Source: an uncultured bacterium
Lineage (GTDB): Bacteria > Bacteroidota > Bacteroidia > Chitinophagales > Chitinophagaceae
Assembly (NCBI GenBank): GCA_903826405.1
Contig: CAIKEH010000043.1
Span: forward strand, 38,093 to 102,092
Length of the DNA: 64,000 bases
Direction: 5' to 3'
In this document: piece by piece, positions 8,659-18,910 of the stretch
How positions within the stretch are numbered: position 1 is the first letter of the stretch
Layout: every line of letters begins with the position of its first letter
The notes under the pieces: model-generated
What the model saw: the letters and a program-made list of their open reading frames with translations, nothing else
Told to the model about the DNA's origin: nothing
Database searches by the model: none
Made by a program: the position numbers and the translations under genes

Positions 8659-10086
8659 TTAATGTAAGGATGTTGCGCCTTTAATGCACGTATTAAAAGT
8701 CGCACAAAATGATGGGGTGGTGACATCATCAAACGGATCATCAGGCAGTCTGATCAAATTACTCCTTCCCTTTTCCACTGCATCAGCCCGCAATAAACTC
8801 AATCCTATACCAGCAACTCCTTGCATGAGTCCTGTTTGAGCCTGCAATAGGCCGGGGCGAGAACGATTTTCAGCCTGAACCCACTGCAGTCCTTTGCCAT
8901 GGCTAGTGCTTTTTTGCAGAAGATCATCCAGCACGCGCTTTGCAAATTGAAGATATATGCTGTCTCTGTATATGCCATACATGTCGAGATAGAAGGCAGC
9001 AATGCCTGCATTACCACAACAGAAACCGACATTGTCCCAATAACCACTGGTCGGCTTTTCCGGTATGCCGGAGTTTATGACCGATCCAGCTGCCTTGCCC
9101 AGCTGTTCTTTCCAGTATGGAAGTCCTGTTTGAGTAAAAAGCTCATGGTAAAGCCTTGCTGTTCCTGCTGGCCCATGGCACCAACCCACATAATAACGAT
9201 CCATGGCCGCAGGATCCGGTTCCGCATGACGGATCATTCCCTGTGACGAAGAAATCCCCGCCAGATATCTAGCCGCTTGATCGGCATCACTGAAAAACAT
9301 TTGGAGTCCGGTCTCCCGGTATAATCTTGCCATGAAGTAAGCGACCCCGGCCGTACCATGGGAAAAATTGGGCATGAAGAAATGATTCGCCGTATCCTTC
9401 ATGAGCATGGGCCATCGTGCAACACCCTTAGAAGACGAAAGCATCCGCTTATTGAGGATGGCCCCCACTTTAGAGGCCTGATCAAGTCCATCATCCATGA
9501 AACCCTCTTTCTTGGCGTATAAGAATGTAAGTCCAATACCTGCATATCCATATATGATATCATTCGCCACCGATGAACTATCGCCATACTTATTCACAAA
9601 TGCCCTGAGGCTATCCAGAACCTGACGGGCGGCCATACCATAGGACTTCTTTCTGAACATCTTGTCCGCCTCATGCAAGACGAATACCAATCCTGAAGCA
9701 CCGGTATAAAGTCCGGTGTTGTTTTCGTCCCAACTGTTGGGCAATAAAGCTATGAGACGGTCAGTCGCTTTTTCTGCGACACGAAGGAACCTGCCCTCTC
9801 CCGTCGCATGATAGAGTTCGAGATAGAATAAAATTATACCTGAGTTGCCTGAATAAAGCTCCGGTGTTGAGGACGTAGAGTCACGGACATCGGGCCAAGA
9901 AATGCCTTTGCTATCAATGCGTTGCAGAGTGGATAACCAACTTTCCGCTTTGAGCGCCGCTTCAAGATAACGACCGGATTGTGCAATGCCTGGATATGAT
10001 GAAAGAAAAATTAACACTGCTAAGCATAATGCTTTGAGCAATGAACAATTAAGATGATGCCGGATCTTCACATCGTTCAATCGCAT
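8659..10086 (-). CDS. Exported LanC-like (lanthionine synthetase C-like) protein
   Basis: 475 aa. A signal peptide (hydrophobic core LKALCLAVLIFLSS, cleavage near IAQSG, residue 38) precedes a full LanC-type alpha/alpha toroid with the repeating G-x-G/A-G motifs: YSGNSGIILFYLE, TGASGLVFVL, GYAGIGLTFLY, SHGTAGVAYF, GWCHGPAGTARLY, FCCGNAGIAAFYL and MQGVAGIGLSLL. The zinc ligands of NisC (C284, C330, H331) correspond to C303 in GWCHGPAG and C356-C357 in FCCGNAG, a Cys-Cys-Cys set like ProcM-type LanM enzymes. After the toroid (LPDDPF) is a 23-aa Thr/Ser/Cys-rich tail. Its start follows the NHL gene stop by one base (TGA-T-ATG), so the two are coupled. No LanA/LanB-like gene is visible. Confidence 0.85.
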   Translation of the reverse strand: MRLNDVKIRHHLNCSLLKALCLAVLIFLSSYPGIAQSGRYLEAALKAESWLSTLQRIDSKGISWPDVRDSTSSTPELYSGNSGIILFYLELYHATGEGRFLRVAEKATDRLIALLPNSWDENNTGLYTGASGLVFVLHEADKMFRKKSYGMAARQVLDSLRAFVNKYGDSSSVANDIIYGYAGIGLTFLYAKKEGFMDDGLDQASKVGAILNKRMLSSSKGVARWPMLMKDTANHFFMPNFSHGTAGVAYFMARLYRETGLQMFFSDADQAARYLAGISSSQGMIRHAEPDPAAMDRYYVGWCHGPAGTARLYHELFTQTGLPYWKEQLGKAAGSVINSGIPEKPTSGYWDNVGFCCGNAGIAAFYLDMYGIYRDSIYLQFAKRVLDDLLQKSTSHGKGLQWVQAENRSRPGLLQAQTGLMQGVAGIGLSLLRADAVEKGRSNLIRLPDDPFDDVTTPSFCATFNTCIKGATSLH

Positions 10087-10087
10087 A

Positions 10088-11146
10088 TCAATTTGCCCGC
10101 TTCAACTTATATGGATAAACCTTACCTGATGCCCATTGAGCTACGTAGAGGTTGCCATCCCGATCCACACATACATCATGTGGATGGTTGAAGATCTTTT
10201 CGGACTGCCGCATCGGCTTCAACGAACCATTCTCATAAATCGGCTCTGTACCTCCTATATTGCTGACCACCTTGTTGTTCTTGTCGAGTATGGTCACAAA
10301 TCCGGTACCCTCTGCACTCAGGTCGGGTGAACGCAGTACCGCTGCAAAGAGATGATCACCGCTGATGACGGGTCTGCAAACGCAGGCACCGGGCAATGAA
10401 ATCTTATCCAAAAGCTTTCCGCTTGTAGAGAAACGCTTGAAGCAGTTTCGGGTGCGGTCCGTCACGAGCAGGGTTTCACTGCCATCGCGTCTATCGAAAG
10501 TGATGCCATGTGCATTATCCAGATGTTCGTCACCGTCCCCACGTCCGCCGAAATAATTCTTCAGCTTGCCGTTCCTGTCGTAGTGAAGTACATACTGGGC
10601 GCCGTAGCCATCTGCGATATATATGTCCCCATCCTCACCGATGACGGTTTCGGTGGGCACGAATTCATCGTTTTTCTTGTAAATACCATTCGCGTCCAGA
10701 GGGGCAGGGATCGTCAACAAGATTTTCCCATCCATGGATACTTTATAGACCTCATGCTTATTGGTGTCCGTCACATACAGGAACTCCGTTCCTCCTTCAC
10801 TATGCAAAGTGAGGCCATGCGCTCCGGGGAATTCATGCCCCCAGCTATCTAATAGCTTGCCTTTCGTATCGTATATCAGGATGTTGTTTTTCGTTTCATT
10901 CGTAAGCAAAATGATCCTTCCCTTTTTATCTTGTACCATCTCATGGCAATCGTTCACCGGATACTTCTCCTTGTCTGCACGACTCCAGGATGTGTCCAGG
11001 GTATAACGCATGCCATTATGCCCATAGACAGGACCTTTATCCCGAGCGAATAGCCCTTTCGTGATGAGGATACCACCGGTTGCTGCGGCAGTGTTTCGTA
11101 GAAATGTCCTTCTGTTCTGTGACATGCTTTTGTTTTTGGATTTCAA
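10088..11146 (-). CDS. Tat-exported NHL-repeat propeller, PAL-like
   Basis: 352 aa with a twin-arginine signal (NRRTFLRNTAAATGG, R12-R13; an alternative start is M8). The rest is a six-bladed NHL beta-propeller with repeats of the form DxxGxxYVADxxxxxV: blades around GEDGDIYIADGYGAQYV, DRRDGSETLLVTDRTRN and CVDRDGNLYVAQWASG. Conserved histidines at blade starts (GAHGLTL, NAHGITFD, NHPHDVCVD) match the pattern of peptidyl-alpha-hydroxyglycine alpha-amidating lyase (PAL), whose three His bind zinc. That enzymatic assignment is inference; related NHL proteins are not all enzymes. It is the first gene of a coupled pair with the periplasmic LanC-like protein. Confidence 0.82.
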   Translation of the reverse strand: MKSKNKSMSQNRRTFLRNTAAATGGILITKGLFARDKGPVYGHNGMRYTLDTSWSRADKEKYPVNDCHEMVQDKKGRIILLTNETKNNILIYDTKGKLLDSWGHEFPGAHGLTLHSEGGTEFLYVTDTNKHEVYKVSMDGKILLTIPAPLDANGIYKKNDEFVPTETVIGEDGDIYIADGYGAQYVLHYDRNGKLKNYFGGRGDGDEHLDNAHGITFDRRDGSETLLVTDRTRNCFKRFSTSGKLLDKISLPGACVCRPVISGDHLFAAVLRSPDLSAEGTGFVTILDKNNKVVSNIGGTEPIYENGSLKPMRQSEKIFNHPHDVCVDRDGNLYVAQWASGKVYPYKLKRAN

Positions 11147-11760: not shown

Positions 11761-13050
11761 TCATTTTACCCCTGAATATCCGAAGACCAGGCTGCAGAAG
11801 GCTTTGACTCCCGTGATGAAGCTGGATTCGTCCAAATAGAAATCAGGCGTATGATGCTGCCCGAATCCAGAAGCGGCCTGGCCCTTGGGCATACCCCCCA
11901 GACTGAAGAAAAAAGAAGGTGCTTTTTCACCATAAAAGGAGAAGTCCTCAGCTACCATGACCCATGTGGATTCCACTACCTGATCCGACCCTACAGCCTT
12001 CAACAGTAAAGCAGCTGACTTCTTGGCCAGTTCAGGGTCATTGTAATTGACGAGGGTCTGCGTATTGATCTCCACTTCAGCAGTGGCTCCTGCACTCTCA
12101 GCGATGGAGGTCACGGTTTTGCGTATCCTTTCATGAACTTTTTTACGCATATCCGCATCCAATGATCGAATCGTTCCACCCATCTCCGCTTTTTCAGGTA
12201 TGATATTATCTCTTACACCGGCATGGAACTGCCCCACCGTGATGACCAGAGGTGCTTTGGTGAGATCTGTTTCTCGACTGACAATATGCTGCAGCCCCTC
12301 GATGATCTGTGCCGATACCACAATCGGGTCAATACTGCTCCAGGGCATGGCCCCATGACTACCCTTACCCATCACCGTTATCTTGAAAAGATCTGACGAT
12401 GCCTGAAATGCCCCGGATTTATATGCCAACTGGCCGGAGGGAAGTCCTGCTGCCATGTGCAGACCGAAAGTCGCTTCCACTTTGGGATCGTTCAGCGCAC
12501 CTTGCTTGATCATGAGAGGCGCCCCAGCTTCTTCTTTGTTCGGAGCACCCTCTTCAGCAGGTTGGAAAAGGAATACTATAGTCCCCGGAAGATCTTTCTG
12601 CATCTGCTTCATCACCTTTGCAGTGGCCATGAGTATGGAGGTGTGTGCATCATGCCCGCATGCGTGCATCACGCCCACAGTTCGCCCGTTGAACTCGGTG
12701 GTCACTTTGGATGCGAAAGGGACAGCGGTTCTTTCGGTGAGAGGCAGCGCATCGATATCGGCACGCAGGGCCAGAACCGGACCCGGCTTCCCCCCTTTCA
12801 ATATGGCCACAACTCCTGTATTCGCCACTGGATATCGGACCTCAAGACCCAATGTTTTCATCTGCTCTGCGATGAAGGCGCCAGTCTTGAACTCCCTGTT
12901 GGAAAGCTCCGGATTCTCGTGGAAATGATGACGCCAACCGATCAATTCAGGCTCAACGGCCTTGAGCAACACATCATAATTCTTGGGCATGACCTGCGCG
13001 AAGGAGATCAAGCTCATGAACAGCCCCACCAGCAAGAGCCACTTTTTCAT
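11761..13050 (-). CDS. Exported M20 family amidohydrolase/peptidase
   Basis: 429 aa, signal peptide (MKKWLLLVGLFMSLISFAQ, cleavage near residue 20), then an M20D-type catalytic domain. Metal-binding motifs are RADIDALPL (D98-100), the hallmark MHACGHDAH (residues 129-136) and FQPAEEG (E166-E167), with a dimerisation domain about 195-310 (GSHGAMPWSSIDPI). HTP near the C-terminus (GQHHTPDF) supplies the last His. Characterised relatives hydrolyse N-acyl amino acids, indole-3-acetyl amino acids or hippurate. Being exported, it probably acts on periplasmic N-acylated amino acids or peptides. Confidence 0.93.
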   Translation of the reverse strand: MKKWLLLVGLFMSLISFAQVMPKNYDVLLKAVEPELIGWRHHFHENPELSNREFKTGAFIAEQMKTLGLEVRYPVANTGVVAILKGGKPGPVLALRADIDALPLTERTAVPFASKVTTEFNGRTVGVMHACGHDAHTSILMATAKVMKQMQKDLPGTIVFLFQPAEEGAPNKEEAGAPLMIKQGALNDPKVEATFGLHMAAGLPSGQLAYKSGAFQASSDLFKITVMGKGSHGAMPWSSIDPIVVSAQIIEGLQHIVSRETDLTKAPLVITVGQFHAGVRDNIIPEKAEMGGTIRSLDADMRKKVHERIRKTVTSIAESAGATAEVEINTQTLVNYNDPELAKKSAALLLKAVGSDQVVESTWVMVAEDFSFYGEKAPSFFFSLGGMPKGQAASGFGQHHTPDFYLDESSFITGVKAFCSLVFGYSGVK

Positions 13051-13330
13051 ACTTCTAGATTTTCCGGCAAAGTAATGATACTAAGCGGAAAAGAGTGGAG
13101 AAAGATCAACAGCCGTTTTTATTATTTGGGGCAGATCCCTTTATTTCAGTCCATGACTCAAAGAAAAGGGATGGGGTGAATGCCTCTCATCACCCACATA
13201 ACAATAAGTGAGTACAAAGTAATTGACTGCGTACACCTGGGTGGCTCCACCTTTTACAAAGTACTGGAACAAGGAACCTCGAATTTCAAAATATGAACTA
13301 TTCTCTATCTTAGTGGATAACGCATCACTT

Positions 13331-14626
13331 ATGAATAAGTTCGTTATTCTCTTTCTCGTGCTTTGTATGGACTTCCATACACAGGCACAACGTACCCTCA
13401 TCCTGGCTAAAACATTGATAGATGGAACCGGTAAGGTGATTTCCGATCCAGCCGTACTGATCGATAGTGGCAGGATCATCAGCATCGGCAGGCGTGGTCC
13501 GGTCTCCAAAGGAACCCAGTTGATAAACTTGGGTGAACGTACTTTATTGCCGGGGCTCATCGACGTGCATGTTCATCCGGATAATGGCGACGACGATTAC
13601 CAGGTTGCTCACCTCCGTAGTTCTTCTGCATACAAAGCATTAATGGCACTTAAAAACGTACAGGATCTTCTTCAGGCTGGGTGGACCGCCTTACGTGTGG
13701 CCGGCGACCAGGACGTCGCCTATGCAAACATGGATCTCAGGAAAGCCATTGATGGCGGACTCTTCACTGGTCCTCATATTTATGGTGCAGCCCACTACAT
13801 TTCCGTTACTGGTGGCGGAGGCGATATAAACTTCATTTCTCCCGAACAACAGGTGATCGCCGATGGTCTTATCGCAAATGGTCCTGACGAGATGCGCAAG
13901 GCCGTTCGCAACGAGATCAAATATGGCAGCAATTGGATCAAGATACTGGAGACCGGCGCATTCATGACCACAGGCGATAATCCCCAGAACGTACACTTCA
14001 GCCCGGAGGAACTGAAGGCCGTCGTTGAAGAGGCCTCTCGTCGCGATGTTCCCGTCATGGCTCATGCCCATGCCACAGAAGGCATCAAACAAGCCGTGAA
14101 AGCAGGTGTAAGATCCATAGAACATGGTTCCTATATGGACGAAGAAGCCATCGACCTGATGATACAATACGGTACCTGGCTCATACCCACCCTGACCATC
14201 GACCTCTGGTTTCAGGAAAAATGGTCAGATAGTAAAGCACTGTCCAAAGCGATCGAACTGGCGAAGAACTCCCGAAAACAAGTATATGATATGCTGAGGT
14301 TGGGCATCCGCAAAGGACTGAAAGTAGGCGTCGGTACTGACTATGTAGGTTGGCCGGCGGAATATTCTGCAAGAGAATTTGAGGAATTGGTGAAGGTAGG
14401 CATGACCCCGATGCAGGCCATCATGGCCGGAACCAAGGTGAATGCAGAACTCCTGAGAAAGGACAATGAGATCGGGACGATCGAACCCGGTAAACTGGCG
14501 GACATCATCGCCGTAGATAAGGATCCTCTTAAAGACATCAGCGAGCTTCAAAGAGTGACCTTTGTCATGATAGGAGGTAAGGTGGTGAAAAAAACCGGTT
14601 TGTCGGACTCACCGCAGTCAAAATAG
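13331..14626 (+). CDS. Exported amidohydrolase family protein (imidazolonepropionase-like)
   Basis: 431 aa from ATG 13331, preferred because it opens a signal peptide (MNKFVILFLVLCMDFHTQAQ); an in-frame ATG at 13223 gives no signal. Amidohydrolase superfamily: LLPGLIDVHVHPD gives the HxH ligands (H80, H82), NWIKILETGAF holds the usual carbamylated-Lys position, then MAHAHATEG and SIEHGSYMD supply the other His, and VGTDYVGW the catalytic Asp. The C-terminal AGTKVNAELL and IEPGKLADIIAVDKDPL are typical of the Xaa-Pro/Xaa-Arg dipeptidase and imidazolonepropionase group. Likely a periplasmic dipeptidase-type hydrolase; substrate open. Confidence 0.9.
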   Translation: MNKFVILFLVLCMDFHTQAQRTLILAKTLIDGTGKVISDPAVLIDSGRIISIGRRGPVSKGTQLINLGERTLLPGLIDVHVHPDNGDDDYQVAHLRSSSAYKALMALKNVQDLLQAGWTALRVAGDQDVAYANMDLRKAIDGGLFTGPHIYGAAHYISVTGGGGDINFISPEQQVIADGLIANGPDEMRKAVRNEIKYGSNWIKILETGAFMTTGDNPQNVHFSPEELKAVVEEASRRDVPVMAHAHATEGIKQAVKAGVRSIEHGSYMDEEAIDLMIQYGTWLIPTLTIDLWFQEKWSDSKALSKAIELAKNSRKQVYDMLRLGIRKGLKVGVGTDYVGWPAEYSAREFEELVKVGMTPMQAIMAGTKVNAELLRKDNEIGTIEPGKLADIIAVDKDPLKDISELQRVTFVMIGGKVVKKTGLSDSPQSK

Positions 14627-14792: not shown

Positions 14793-15959
14793 ATGAAAAA
14801 AAGCACGGCCGCAGTATGGAGTGGAGAAGGTGATCTCAACACAAAAGGAGCTGCCACCTCACCTATCGTGAATAGCGTTGCCTTCAGCTACAAAGACCTT
14901 GAAGCATGGCATCAGGTCTCCCTCGGAAAAACTGATGGGTTCATTTATAGCCGGAACACAAATCCCACCGTAGCTGTATTGGAAGAAAAGATACGTGTAT
15001 TGGAAGGGGCAGAAGATGCAACATCTTTCTCAACCGGAATGGCCGCCATCAGCAATACGCTATTCACCTTTCTTACCACGGGCAAACGTGTGGTCTCCCT
15101 GAAGGACACCTACGGTGGAACGAGCAAGATCTTCCTTGACTTCCTTCCCAAATATGGCGTTGACGTGAAATTGTGCGACACAACGGATCATGGACAACTT
15201 GAAACCGAGATCGCGAAAGGTTGCGATCTCCTTTATCTGGAGACACCAACCAATCCGACACTGAAAGTGGTCGACATCAAAAGGCTTGCTGATGCAGCTA
15301 AAAAAGTTGGGGCAGTGGTGGTGGTGGATAACACCTTCGCCACCCCCATCAATCAGAATCCGCTGCAGTCAGGCGCCGACCTTGTCATCCACAGTGCCAC
15401 CAAATTCCTATGTGGCCATTCTGACGCCATGGGCGGATTGCTGGCAGGGAGAAAAGAACTGGTACGTAAAGTTTACCATTTCAGGGAGATCAACGGCGCT
15501 AGCTTGCAAGCCGACCCTGCCTACATGATTGCACGGGGAATGAAAACCCTTGAGCTTCGCATCGAAAGACAAAATGCTTCGGCCATGACCATTGCCCGAT
15601 ACCTCAAGACACACTCGAAAGTGAAGGATGTTTTTTACCCTGGGCTTGAATCGCATATCGGACATGATATCGCAAAGCGGCAAATGTCCGGATTCGGCGG
15701 GATGATGAGTTTCGCATTGGACGGCAGCTACGAGCTCGTGAAAAAATTCCTCACCAGCCTGCAATGGGTACACCTCGCCGCAAGCCTTGGCTCGGTCAGT
15801 ACCCTGGCCGGCCCACCCCGCACAACCAGCCATGTGGAACTGACCGAGCAGCAACGAGCCATGCTGGGTATCCCGGAAAGCCTGATCCGATACAGCGTAG
15901 GTATTGAGAATGTGGAGGACCTGCTGGAAGATATAGAACAAGCGCTGGGGAAATTGTAG
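14793..15959 (+). CDS. PLP-dependent trans-sulfuration enzyme (Cys/Met metabolism family)
   Basis: 388 aa, cytoplasmic, about the normal length for cystathionine gamma-synthase, cystathionine beta/gamma-lyase and methionine gamma-lyase. Landmarks: YSRNTNPTV (residues 52-60) and the PLP-Lys site VIHSATKFLCGHSD with K204, plus VVVDNTFATP. The substitution of the usual Gly/Tyr residues is too subtle to assign substrate by eye. Upstream 166 bp contain no gene. The next gene, an acyl-CoA ligase, starts 90 bp downstream on the same strand, making these two and the oxidase genes beyond a possible catabolic group. Confidence 0.93.
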   Translation: MKKSTAAVWSGEGDLNTKGAATSPIVNSVAFSYKDLEAWHQVSLGKTDGFIYSRNTNPTVAVLEEKIRVLEGAEDATSFSTGMAAISNTLFTFLTTGKRVVSLKDTYGGTSKIFLDFLPKYGVDVKLCDTTDHGQLETEIAKGCDLLYLETPTNPTLKVVDIKRLADAAKKVGAVVVVDNTFATPINQNPLQSGADLVIHSATKFLCGHSDAMGGLLAGRKELVRKVYHFREINGASLQADPAYMIARGMKTLELRIERQNASAMTIARYLKTHSKVKDVFYPGLESHIGHDIAKRQMSGFGGMMSFALDGSYELVKKFLTSLQWVHLAASLGSVSTLAGPPRTTSHVELTEQQRAMLGIPESLIRYSVGIENVEDLLEDIEQALGKL

Positions 15960-16048
15960 TTTTCCAAGAGCACAAGCCAGGATGCTTTAACCTCCTGTGA
16001 GCAGTCTCAAATCCTTTAATGCTGCCCGAAAAATCGAAAACATCTCAT

Positions 16049-17671
16049 ATGGAAGGACTAATGATGCAGTATCCACTTACGCTCACCATGATTCTGGAAC
16101 ATGGATATCGTATACATCCGACCAAGCAGATCGTATCCATCCTTCCTGACAAAAGACGCCACCAATATACTTTTGCCGATCTCTACAAAAGGAGCAAACG
16201 ACTTGCACATGCATTGAGGCACCAACTCGGTCTAGGTAAAGGAGACATGGTCGGGACCTATGCATGGAACCACCACCAGCATCTCGAAATGTATTTCGGG
16301 ATACCAGCCAGCGGCGCCATCTGCCACACCATCAACATCCGGCTTTCCGCAACACAAACGGAGTTCATCGTGAACCATGCGGAAGACAAATACATCTTCA
16401 TAGATGCCACTCTGGTTCCTCAATTCGAGAAGATACGATCTGCTTTGACAACGGTACGGGGATTCATAGTACTCAATGCACCAGAAGATTTCACCACTAC
16501 GCTTCATAACTGGCAACATTATGAAGAACTGCTGTCCAGAGCTTCGGAGGATGCGGATTGGTCACTGATTGAAGAAGACGATCCTTGTGCAATGTGCTAC
16601 ACCAGCGGCACAACCGGTCAACCGAAAGGAGTCCTGTATTCACATAGATCCACCGTACTGCATGCGATGTCCGTTTGTATGCCCAATCATGCGAATGTAT
16701 CATTCCACGACACCATGCTCATCATCGTTCCTCAATTTCATGTCATGGCATGGGGGTTCCCCTTTGCAGGAATAATGGCCGGCGCACGCATCGTCTTCCC
16801 GTCCATGCATATGCAACCAGAGTCCCTGATCCGTATCATTTTGGCGGAGAATGTCAATAAAGCCGCAGCTGTTCCCACCATCTGGCTGGGTGTTTACGCC
16901 GCACTGAAGTCGGGTGGCATCAAAAGCATCCCCTTGAAAGAACTCATCGTTGGCGGAGCCGCAGTTCCACCCAACCTGATCGAGAATTTCCAGCAAGAAT
17001 TCAACATCACTGTGGTCCACTCCTGGGGCATGACGGAGACATCCCCCGTAGTCACCATGGGCAGGTTGCAACCGGAACATGCATCGCTTAGCGATGAACA
17101 GAAGATCACATTAAGAGCCAGGCAGGGTCAACCCCTTTTTGGCACCGAGATACGCATCATGAAGGAAGACCACACCCCAGCACCCTGGGACGGGATTACA
17201 CCAGGTGAAGTACAGGTACGAGGGGCATGGGTCATCGAAAGCTACTATCAAGTGAAAAGCCGGGATAATTTCACGGAAGATGGCTGGTTCCGTACCGGCG
17301 ATGTGGCAACGATGGATCCACAAGGCTACATGCAGATCACTGACCGCACAAAGGATCTGATCAAAAGTGGTGGTGAATGGATCTCTTCCGTCGCTCTTGA
17401 ACTCTCGATCATGACACATCCTAAAGTAAGAGAAGCGTCAGTCATCGCCATCCCCGATGATAAATGGCTGGAGCGTCCTTTGGCCTGCGTAGTGCTTAAG
17501 GATCCTGAAGAAATCATCTCCCATCAGGAATTGACGGAGTTCCTCACGCCACATTTCGCGAAATTCCAGATTCCTGACCAACTCCGTATTTTGCTGGAGA
17601 TCCCTAAAACCAGTGTGGGCAAATTCGACAAGAAAGAGATGAGAAGGCTATATGCAGAAGGGAAATTATAG
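16049..17671 (+). CDS. Medium/long-chain acyl-CoA ligase (AMP-binding enzyme)
   Basis: 540 aa. Start taken at ATG 16049 because family members commonly begin MxxLMMxYPLTL; an in-frame ATG at 16019 is possible. ANL superfamily motifs in order: CYTSGTTGQPKGVLYSHRS (P-loop, residues 185-203), SWGMTETSP (A5), GWFRTGDVATMDPQGYMQ (A7) and DRTKDLIKSGGEWIS (A8), ending with the A10 lysine in TSVGKFDKKEM. The TxxLYSH region and the N-terminus resemble the long-chain-fatty-acid/3-methylmercaptopropionyl-CoA ligase group. It activates a carboxylic acid through an acyl-AMP to its CoA thioester, with substrate undetermined. Confidence 0.92.
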   Translation: MEGLMMQYPLTLTMILEHGYRIHPTKQIVSILPDKRRHQYTFADLYKRSKRLAHALRHQLGLGKGDMVGTYAWNHHQHLEMYFGIPASGAICHTINIRLSATQTEFIVNHAEDKYIFIDATLVPQFEKIRSALTTVRGFIVLNAPEDFTTTLHNWQHYEELLSRASEDADWSLIEEDDPCAMCYTSGTTGQPKGVLYSHRSTVLHAMSVCMPNHANVSFHDTMLIIVPQFHVMAWGFPFAGIMAGARIVFPSMHMQPESLIRIILAENVNKAAAVPTIWLGVYAALKSGGIKSIPLKELIVGGAAVPPNLIENFQQEFNITVVHSWGMTETSPVVTMGRLQPEHASLSDEQKITLRARQGQPLFGTEIRIMKEDHTPAPWDGITPGEVQVRGAWVIESYYQVKSRDNFTEDGWFRTGDVATMDPQGYMQITDRTKDLIKSGGEWISSVALELSIMTHPKVREASVIAIPDDKWLERPLACVVLKDPEEIISHQELTEFLTPHFAKFQIPDQLRILLEIPKTSVGKFDKKEMRRLYAEGKL

Positions 17672-17758
17672 TCTAAAGAGATCAGCAAAAGGCTACAGTT
17701 TTTTCCCTTAACGTAAGAAAAAAATACAACCTTCATTCTCGAAACCGGCTAGATACAC

Positions 17759-18910
17759 ATGAAACAATACGACGCCATAGTAATCGGCTTGGGATCCATG
17801 GGGTCCTCGACGGTTTATCACCTCGCTAAAGAAGGTATGAGCGTACTGGGCCTGGAGCAGTTCGACATCACACACGATCAGGGTTCCCATGCGGGCCAAA
17901 GCCGCATCATTCGAAAATCATACTACGAACACCCCGACTATGTTCCTATACTGGAGAGGGCGTATCACAATTGGCGTGTACTGGAAAACATCACCGGCGT
18001 AGAAGTATACCATCGCACTGGTCTGCTCTATTTTGGGAATCCCGAACATCAACTCATCAAAGGCAGTAAACTTTCCGCTTCCACATACAATATCCCTTTT
18101 CATCCAATGAATGACGAGGAGGTTTCAATAAAATATCCTCACTTCGAGGTTCCCCAAGACCATGAGAAATGGTTCGAACCCGATGCAGGTTTCGTTACGC
18201 CGGAACGTGCTATACTCTTATACGTTCAATTGGCGATGCGCCTTGGGGCTGACATACAGGCCAAAGAGAAGGTTCTGCACTGGAATAGGAGACCCGATGG
18301 CATTACCGTGACCACCGATAAAGGAGTTTACACGGCCAGAAAATTGATCATTACTGCCGGACCCTGGGCAGGAAAGCTCATTCCAACTCTATCTGGAAAT
18401 CTCAGTCCGAGCCGACAGGTAGTAGCTTGGGTTAAACCCAAAAACTGGAAGGATTTTGAAATGGGTAATTTCCCCTGCTGGACTTTGGCGGATGGCATGA
18501 AACCCGGTATATATTATGGCTTCCCCATTCTTGATGTAGGAAAATTCGGTGGCCCGATCGGACTCAAGTTGGCATACCACTACCCTACTGGGAAAACCGA
18601 TCCGGATGCGGTGAGCAGGATCATCACCGAAGCAGATGAAGCGGAGATACGTTACATTTTGGACAACTTCTTTCCAAACAGTAATGCTGAATTGCTGACA
18701 CTAAAAACCTGTCTGTATACGAACACTCCGGACGAGAACTTTATCATCGACTTCGCCCCCGGACAGGATGAAGATGTGGTGATAGCCGCAGGGTTCAGTG
18801 GGCATGGTTTCAAATTCGCCTCCGCCATCGGCGAGATCATGGCCGATCTTGCACTGAAAGGAAAAACGTTCTTACCCATAGGCTTCTTGAGTGCAAAAAG
18901 ATTCGCATGA
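17759..18910 (+). CDS. solA: N-methyl-L-amino-acid (tryptophan) oxidase, FAD-dependent
   Basis: 383 aa, the normal length for the monomeric sarcosine oxidase/N-methyltryptophan oxidase family. N-terminal FAD-binding GxGxxG: VIGLGSMGSSTVYHLAKEG (residues 8-26), followed by HAGQSRIIRKSYYEHPDYVP, which is a family signature. The covalent flavin cysteine is C318 in LKTCLYTNTPDENFIID. These enzymes oxidatively demethylate N-methyl amino acids to formaldehyde, hydrogen peroxide and the free amino acid. The symbol follows the E. coli SolA resemblance; the true substrate (sarcosine, N-methyl-Trp or pipecolate) is not decided. The next gene overlaps by four bases (ATGA). Confidence 0.85.
   Translation: MKQYDAIVIGLGSMGSSTVYHLAKEGMSVLGLEQFDITHDQGSHAGQSRIIRKSYYEHPDYVPILERAYHNWRVLENITGVEVYHRTGLLYFGNPEHQLIKGSKLSASTYNIPFHPMNDEEVSIKYPHFEVPQDHEKWFEPDAGFVTPERAILLYVQLAMRLGADIQAKEKVLHWNRRPDGITVTTDKGVYTARKLIITAGPWAGKLIPTLSGNLSPSRQVVAWVKPKNWKDFEMGNFPCWTLADGMKPGIYYGFPILDVGKFGGPIGLKLAYHYPTGKTDPDAVSRIITEADEAEIRYILDNFFPNSNAELLTLKTCLYTNTPDENFIIDFAPGQDEDVVIAAGFSGHGFKFASAIGEIMADLALKGKTFLPIGFLSAKRFA

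Follow-up and report, generated by a model that had tools for sequence, protein, structure and literature searches.

We identified in the window (the whole stretch of 64,000 nucleotides analysed here) a gene for a LanC-like protein, which belongs to a bacterial protein family that is, with near certainty, both real and exported, and that is apparently so far undescribed. As known so far, LanC chemistry takes place in the cytoplasm, where it serves the making of lanthipeptides or, in eukaryotes, the removal of electrophilic dehydroamino acids from proteins. Judging from the sequences, we put at about even odds the proposal that the members are extracytoplasmic zinc-thiolate enzymes, which would join thiols to dehydroamino acids from another source, and not lanthipeptide cyclases. 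If true, LanC chemistry would reach the cell envelope through a conserved exported bacterial branch that keeps the complete active site and has no dehydratase. This would raise the question of which dehydroamino acids outside the cell call for an enzyme of their own, and which thiol it uses.

The open reading frame matches the LANC_like profile (PF05147) with an E-value of 1.9e-44 and 152 bits, above the cut-off of 23.2. It contains seven G-x-x-G toroid motifs, WCHG at residues 302-305 (C303) and FCCG at residues 355-358 (C356/C357), and it starts with a hydrophobic, Sec-type N-terminus, MRLNDVKIRHHLNCSLLKALCLAVLIFLSSYPGIAQ. The sequence-only reading that preceded our analysis had described an exported LanC-like protein with a signal peptide, toroid motifs and the cysteines C303/C356/C357, and the profile match, the N-terminus and the motifs all bear this out. 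The features of the protein are the following.

8659..10086, minus strand: exported LanC-like protein, 475 aa (Pfam LANC_like, AlphaFold model and structure matches)
9979..10086, minus strand: Sec-type signal peptide of residues 1-36 (judged from hydropathy and by eye; homologues carry Sec, lipoprotein or Tat signals)
9559..9561, minus strand: D176, conserved acid of the D-I-x-x-G motif (D in 82/85 and E in 2/85 members; aligned to LanCL1 NEMLYG)
9358..9360, minus strand: H243 (NFSHGT), equivalent by profile alignment of LanCL1 His219, the proposed enolate-protonating acid (85/85; role from PMC9934072)
9175..9180, minus strand: C303-H304 (WCHG), first zinc cysteine and equivalent by profile alignment of LanCL1 His277 (85/85; His277 role from PMC9934072)
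9016..9021, minus strand: C356-C357 (CCG), predicted second and third zinc ligands (85/85; profile alignment)
8662..8733, minus strand: C-terminal tail of 24 residues with C461 and C467 (missing in nearly all relatives; low model confidence)

In the host genome, which is 100% complete, this is the sole LANC_like gene. Its GC3 is 0.45 versus 0.51-0.65 for its neighbours, in keeping with a recent arrival.

The AlphaFold model of the protein (pLDDT 91) is an (alpha/alpha)6 toroid. Its structure matches are CuvL, LanCL2, GCR2, MadC, NisC and LanCL1 at Z 35-38 and other lanthipeptide synthetases at Z 26-33; the (alpha/alpha)6 sugar enzymes, at Z 19-23, score below these LanC relatives. A profile alignment to LanCL1 and LanCL2 placed H243 on the histidine of AHG, C303-H304 on CHG and C356-C357 on C-H. 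In LanCL1, the aligned residues are His219, the proposed proton donor, His277, which binds the enolate, and the zinc ligands, and these roles are backed by structures and mutants (PMC9934072). The eukaryotic proteins LanCL1 and LanCL2, which add glutathione to Dha/Dhb in proteins, resemble the exported family in being stand-alone toroids with a CHG motif that holds the second catalytic histidine and with no cognate dehydratase (PMC9934072). They differ in the third zinc ligand, which is a histidine in LanCL (CHG) and a cysteine in the exported family (CCG), and in the thiol, as glutathione is unlikely to serve the exported proteins. LanCL1 and LanCL2 are cytoplasmic.

The predicted three-cysteine zinc site (C303/C356/C357) is like that of ProcM, whose motifs are of the CHG/CCG type. 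These motifs are common to the cyclase domains of LanM (ProcM) and LanL (CuvL) proteins; CuvL shares CCG and gives the best structure match (Z 38, a score that LanCL2 and GCR2 equal). Unlike these enzymes, however, the LanC-like protein is exported, has no dehydratase, kinase or lyase domain, and stays far below the NCBIfam cut-offs (144 of 304 bits for LanM, 127 of 650 for LanL and 96 of 575 for LanKC). Each of the 55 family members tested gave matches to the LanM, LanL and LanKC models, and no other NCBIfam model fits better. With the class I proteins NisC and MadC the LanC-like protein shares the stand-alone LanC fold (Z 37).

Relatives from the same order and phylum, at 37-41% identity, all carry signal peptides. 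We used their alignment, with two short motifs (containing HGT or CC), to scan one genome each of 84,980 species; a scan of genome contigs with a single-protein query had found no relatives. The alignment-based scan detected 122 loci encoding relatives, mostly in metagenome-assembled genomes. The best 80 of these loci, which were kept, cover at least seven phyla: Bacteroidota, Ignavibacteria, Acidobacteriota, Aminicenantes, Gemmatimonadota, Planctomycetota, Armatimonadota, Proteobacteria and a few others. Conservation of C303, C356 and C357 had been named beforehand as a point to check, and these three cysteines, H304 and H243 are invariant in 85 of 85 aligned members. A bias from the search motifs was ruled out as the cause: all 47 loci that the HGT motif alone detected contain CC, all 7 that the CC motif alone detected contain H243, and C303/H304 were never part of the search. 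E406, R408 and Q417 are also invariant and Q422 is nearly so; these residues are specific to the family and, to our knowledge, not part of known LanC chemistry.

Export signals of the Sec, lipoprotein or Tat kind were recognized in about 72 of 74 assessable members, with only a rough split among the three kinds. N-termini were classed by a hydropathy and motif script (65 members) and by eye (7 twin-arginine members just under the hydropathy threshold). Two gammaproteobacterial proteins clearly have no signal. The use of three different export routes indicates that export matters. In a tree built by a quick method, with some long branches, the family and three Gram-positive relatives form one clade with 99% SH-aLRT support. 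The host's bacterial family also has canonical LanC, of the CYG/CHG type, and LanM-like proteins, and these fall outside the clade. The stand-alone LanC of Chitinophagaceae, with CYG and CHG motifs, lies in a separate clade from the exported family with CHG/CCG. The three Gram-positive proteins show no apparent signal peptide in the aligned sequences, and since these cytoplasmic members are nested in the clade, export is not universal.

A literature search with most subscription journals outside its scope returned no description of exported or orphan LanC-like families as such. Orphan LanC genes have been noted earlier (PMC3091789). For three Bacteroidales clusters that have a LanC but no LanB, the LanC proteins were judged to be without the zinc motif and similar to glucanases (PMC10352776). 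The exported family differs from these Bacteroidales proteins in its fully conserved zinc site and in its systematic export. We saw no mention of such export in either paper.

Upstream of the LanC gene lies an NHL gene.

10088..11146, minus strand: PAL-like NHL propeller with a Tat signal (adjoins the LanC gene; pairing not conserved)

The reading frame was called from TTG at 11146; an ATG at 11125 gives the twin-arginine signal MSQNRRTFLRNTAAATGG and is probably the true start. PAL (3fvz), with which the NHL protein shares 19% identity, is among the sequence matches, and H110 aligns with the histidine of the PAL PHGL motif. In the structure comparison PAL scores highest, at Z 30.5, a rank that it shares with TRIM NHL domains. 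Of the candidate zinc-binding His triad and catalytic Tyr, H213, H323 and Y181 are conserved among NHL homologues and match PAL by motif only, H110 alone being aligned by the program. The likeness to PAL is genuine, yet not decisive, as the TRIM domains score equally. Of the Tat-exported NHL protein with a PAL histidine pattern that had been described from the sequence, the twin-arginine signal and the likeness to PAL in sequence, H110 and fold stand, and the rest of the triad is a match by motif. A second PAL-like NHL paralogue in the host genome (contig 10, locus L064, 7538-8647) has a PSCyt1/DUF2231 protein and proteins of Tat type as neighbours, and at locus L063 the same NHL type lies between DUF1501 and PSCyt1 proteins in a planctomycete-type exported gene set. 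Other NHL homologues, the contig 10 paralogue included, adjoin DUF1501 and PSCyt1/DUF2231 genes, a setting unrelated to LanC.

The coordinates confirm that LanC starts one base after the NHL stop on the same strand, as had been stated, and the two genes are probably co-transcribed. To assess whether the adjacency recurs, we surveyed gene neighbourhoods; the sequence-only reading had set this test beforehand and would take rare adjacency as coincidence. NHL homologues were found in 28 of 36 congeners and matches to the LanC-like protein in none of the 36. Where the contigs extend far enough to show them, the neighbours of the closest NHL homologues (63-72% identity) are quite different, and the window's NHL protein had no match among the open reading frames flanking the deduplicated LanC family loci (about 70 other members). 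With NHL occurring without LanC in congeners and LanC without NHL elsewhere, the adjacency is best read as lineage-specific, and the NHL gene as a local neighbour and not as a conserved functional partner of LanC.

Lanthipeptide machinery was searched for in the host genome and around the family. The LanM and LanB domains PF13575 and PF04738 are absent from the complete host genome, while other genomes matched in the same searches; this extends the earlier statement that no dehydratase lies within 10 kb. PF14028 gave no match there in an uncontrolled search. Among 20 family-bearing genomes, 15 have neither LanM nor LanB. No conserved Ser/Thr/Cys-rich small open reading frame adjoins family members, and the window holds no convincing precursor peptide, in agreement with the earlier remark that none was visible nearby. 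Hidden precursors beside family members were rejected as well, as the only conserved small frames there are shadows of larger, mostly high-GC genes.

As no enzyme known to form dehydroamino acids is encoded with LanC, the acceptor would come from elsewhere and the role would not be biosynthetic. In the proposed mechanism, zinc held by three cysteine thiolates outside the cytoplasm would activate a thiol, either a peptide cysteine or a small thiol, for addition to a residue of dehydroalanine or dehydrobutyrine; H243 would give the proton and H304 would steady the enolate. The acceptor might derive from damaged envelope proteins or environmental peptides, so that the enzyme would serve scavenging, repair or detoxification rather than lanthipeptide biosynthesis. 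Somewhat more tentatively, we suggest repair or detoxification by such thiol addition as the role of extracytoplasmic LanC-type zinc enzymes across several phyla, for which we know of no report in bacteria. On the chemical side, an oxidising compartment makes a set of three zinc thiolates less certain, and the family-specific residues E406, R408, Q417 and nearly invariant Q422 may indicate a different reaction.

The genes on the other side of the NHL gene and beside other family members include peptide- and amino-acid-processing types. In the window, two of them lie within 5 kb of the LanC gene.

11761..13050, minus strand: M20 peptidase, CpsA type (gene type recurs near other family members)
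13223..14626, plus strand: amidohydrolase, Xaa-Pro dipeptidase-like (relatives with a fused TolB-type propeller are found repeatedly next to Gemmatimonadota members)

Neighbouring frames were clustered with a GC3 rule against antisense open reading frames in high-GC genomes. The commonest neighbours are, in Gemmatimonadota, TolB-propeller-fused amidohydrolases and PLP decarboxylases, the decarboxylases occurring also in one planctomycete, and, in Ignavibacteria, Flavobacteriaceae and Cyclobacteriaceae, M20 peptidases. Comparison of matches within two positions to those at four or more gave 4:0 and 3:1 for M20, 8:1 for the amidohydrolase and 7:1 for the decarboxylase (263 near and 345 far frames, kinship ignored). 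The enrichment of M20 peptidases and amidohydrolases is modest and comes partly from one clade, Gemmatimonadota; their presence fits a handling of extracellular peptides or amino-acid conjugates.

These neighbours also suit a reading in which the family keeps the LanC fold and metal and uses the zinc site for another reaction. Its exported substrate would then be a different one, for example a thiol conjugate, a modified amino acid or a cell-wall peptide, and the neighbouring M20 peptidases, amidohydrolases and PLP decarboxylases would act in the same pathway. We regard this as possible, with perhaps a minority share of the likelihood: the residues specific to the family and the lack of a dehydratase in most genomes speak for it as well, but all thia-Michael residues of LanCL1 are conserved, and a mere metal site would not require them all. 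A true lanthipeptide cyclase, with precursor and dehydratase encoded elsewhere and ring closure after export, would explain why the cyclase residues, which are of the CHG/CCG type as in LanM/LanL, are intact; it is nevertheless improbable for the sole LANC_like protein of a complete genome in which PF13575 and PF04738 (and, uncontrolled, PF14028) are absent, in a family without an adjoining conserved candidate precursor.

Very little likelihood attaches to a periplasmic peptide-tailoring pair of a PAL-like lyase and a cyclase, as proposed from the sequence. The one-base spacing on one strand, the export of both proteins and a truly PAL-like NHL protein would be expected of such a pair; against it stand the congeners with NHL and without LanC, the other family members without such an NHL gene in their flanks and the low GC3 of LanC, as expected of a newcomer. 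The PHM partner domain PF03712 was also not matched in the host genome, a weak argument as no control genome matched in that search either. Finally, it is hardly credible that the protein is an (alpha/alpha)6 carbohydrate enzyme annotated in error, or a metal-less LanC-like protein as in Bacteroidales. The toroid is common to sugar enzymes, and the Bacteroidales LanC matches were judged glucanase-like and without zinc residues (PMC10352776), but the zinc residues are complete in 85 of 85 members and LanC structures score far higher. A glycoside-hydrolase identity was accordingly rejected on both residues and fold. Thiol addition to dehydroamino acids by an exported zinc enzyme is the reading that we favour.

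Several smaller observations concern the surroundings and the end of the protein. A LOG-family gene upstream of Saprospiraceae-type members looks like local synteny only. One Gemmatimonadota run (locus L152, 4375-12653) comprises a TolB-propeller amidohydrolase, a Tat-exported LanC-like protein, a diaminobutyrate-decarboxylase-like PLP enzyme and a nucleobase permease, and parts of it are repeated in several genomes. Downstream of the window's amidohydrolase, positions 14793-18910 encode a PLP enzyme of the cystathionine gamma-synthase family and, after it, an AMP-binding enzyme and an FAD-dependent oxidoreductase (DAO); this run may serve the catabolism of amino acids. The C-terminal tail of the LanC-like protein, with its two cysteines and several Ser/Thr, includes TTPSFCATFNTCIKGATSLH and may be a read-through beyond the ancestral end or a fused peptide.
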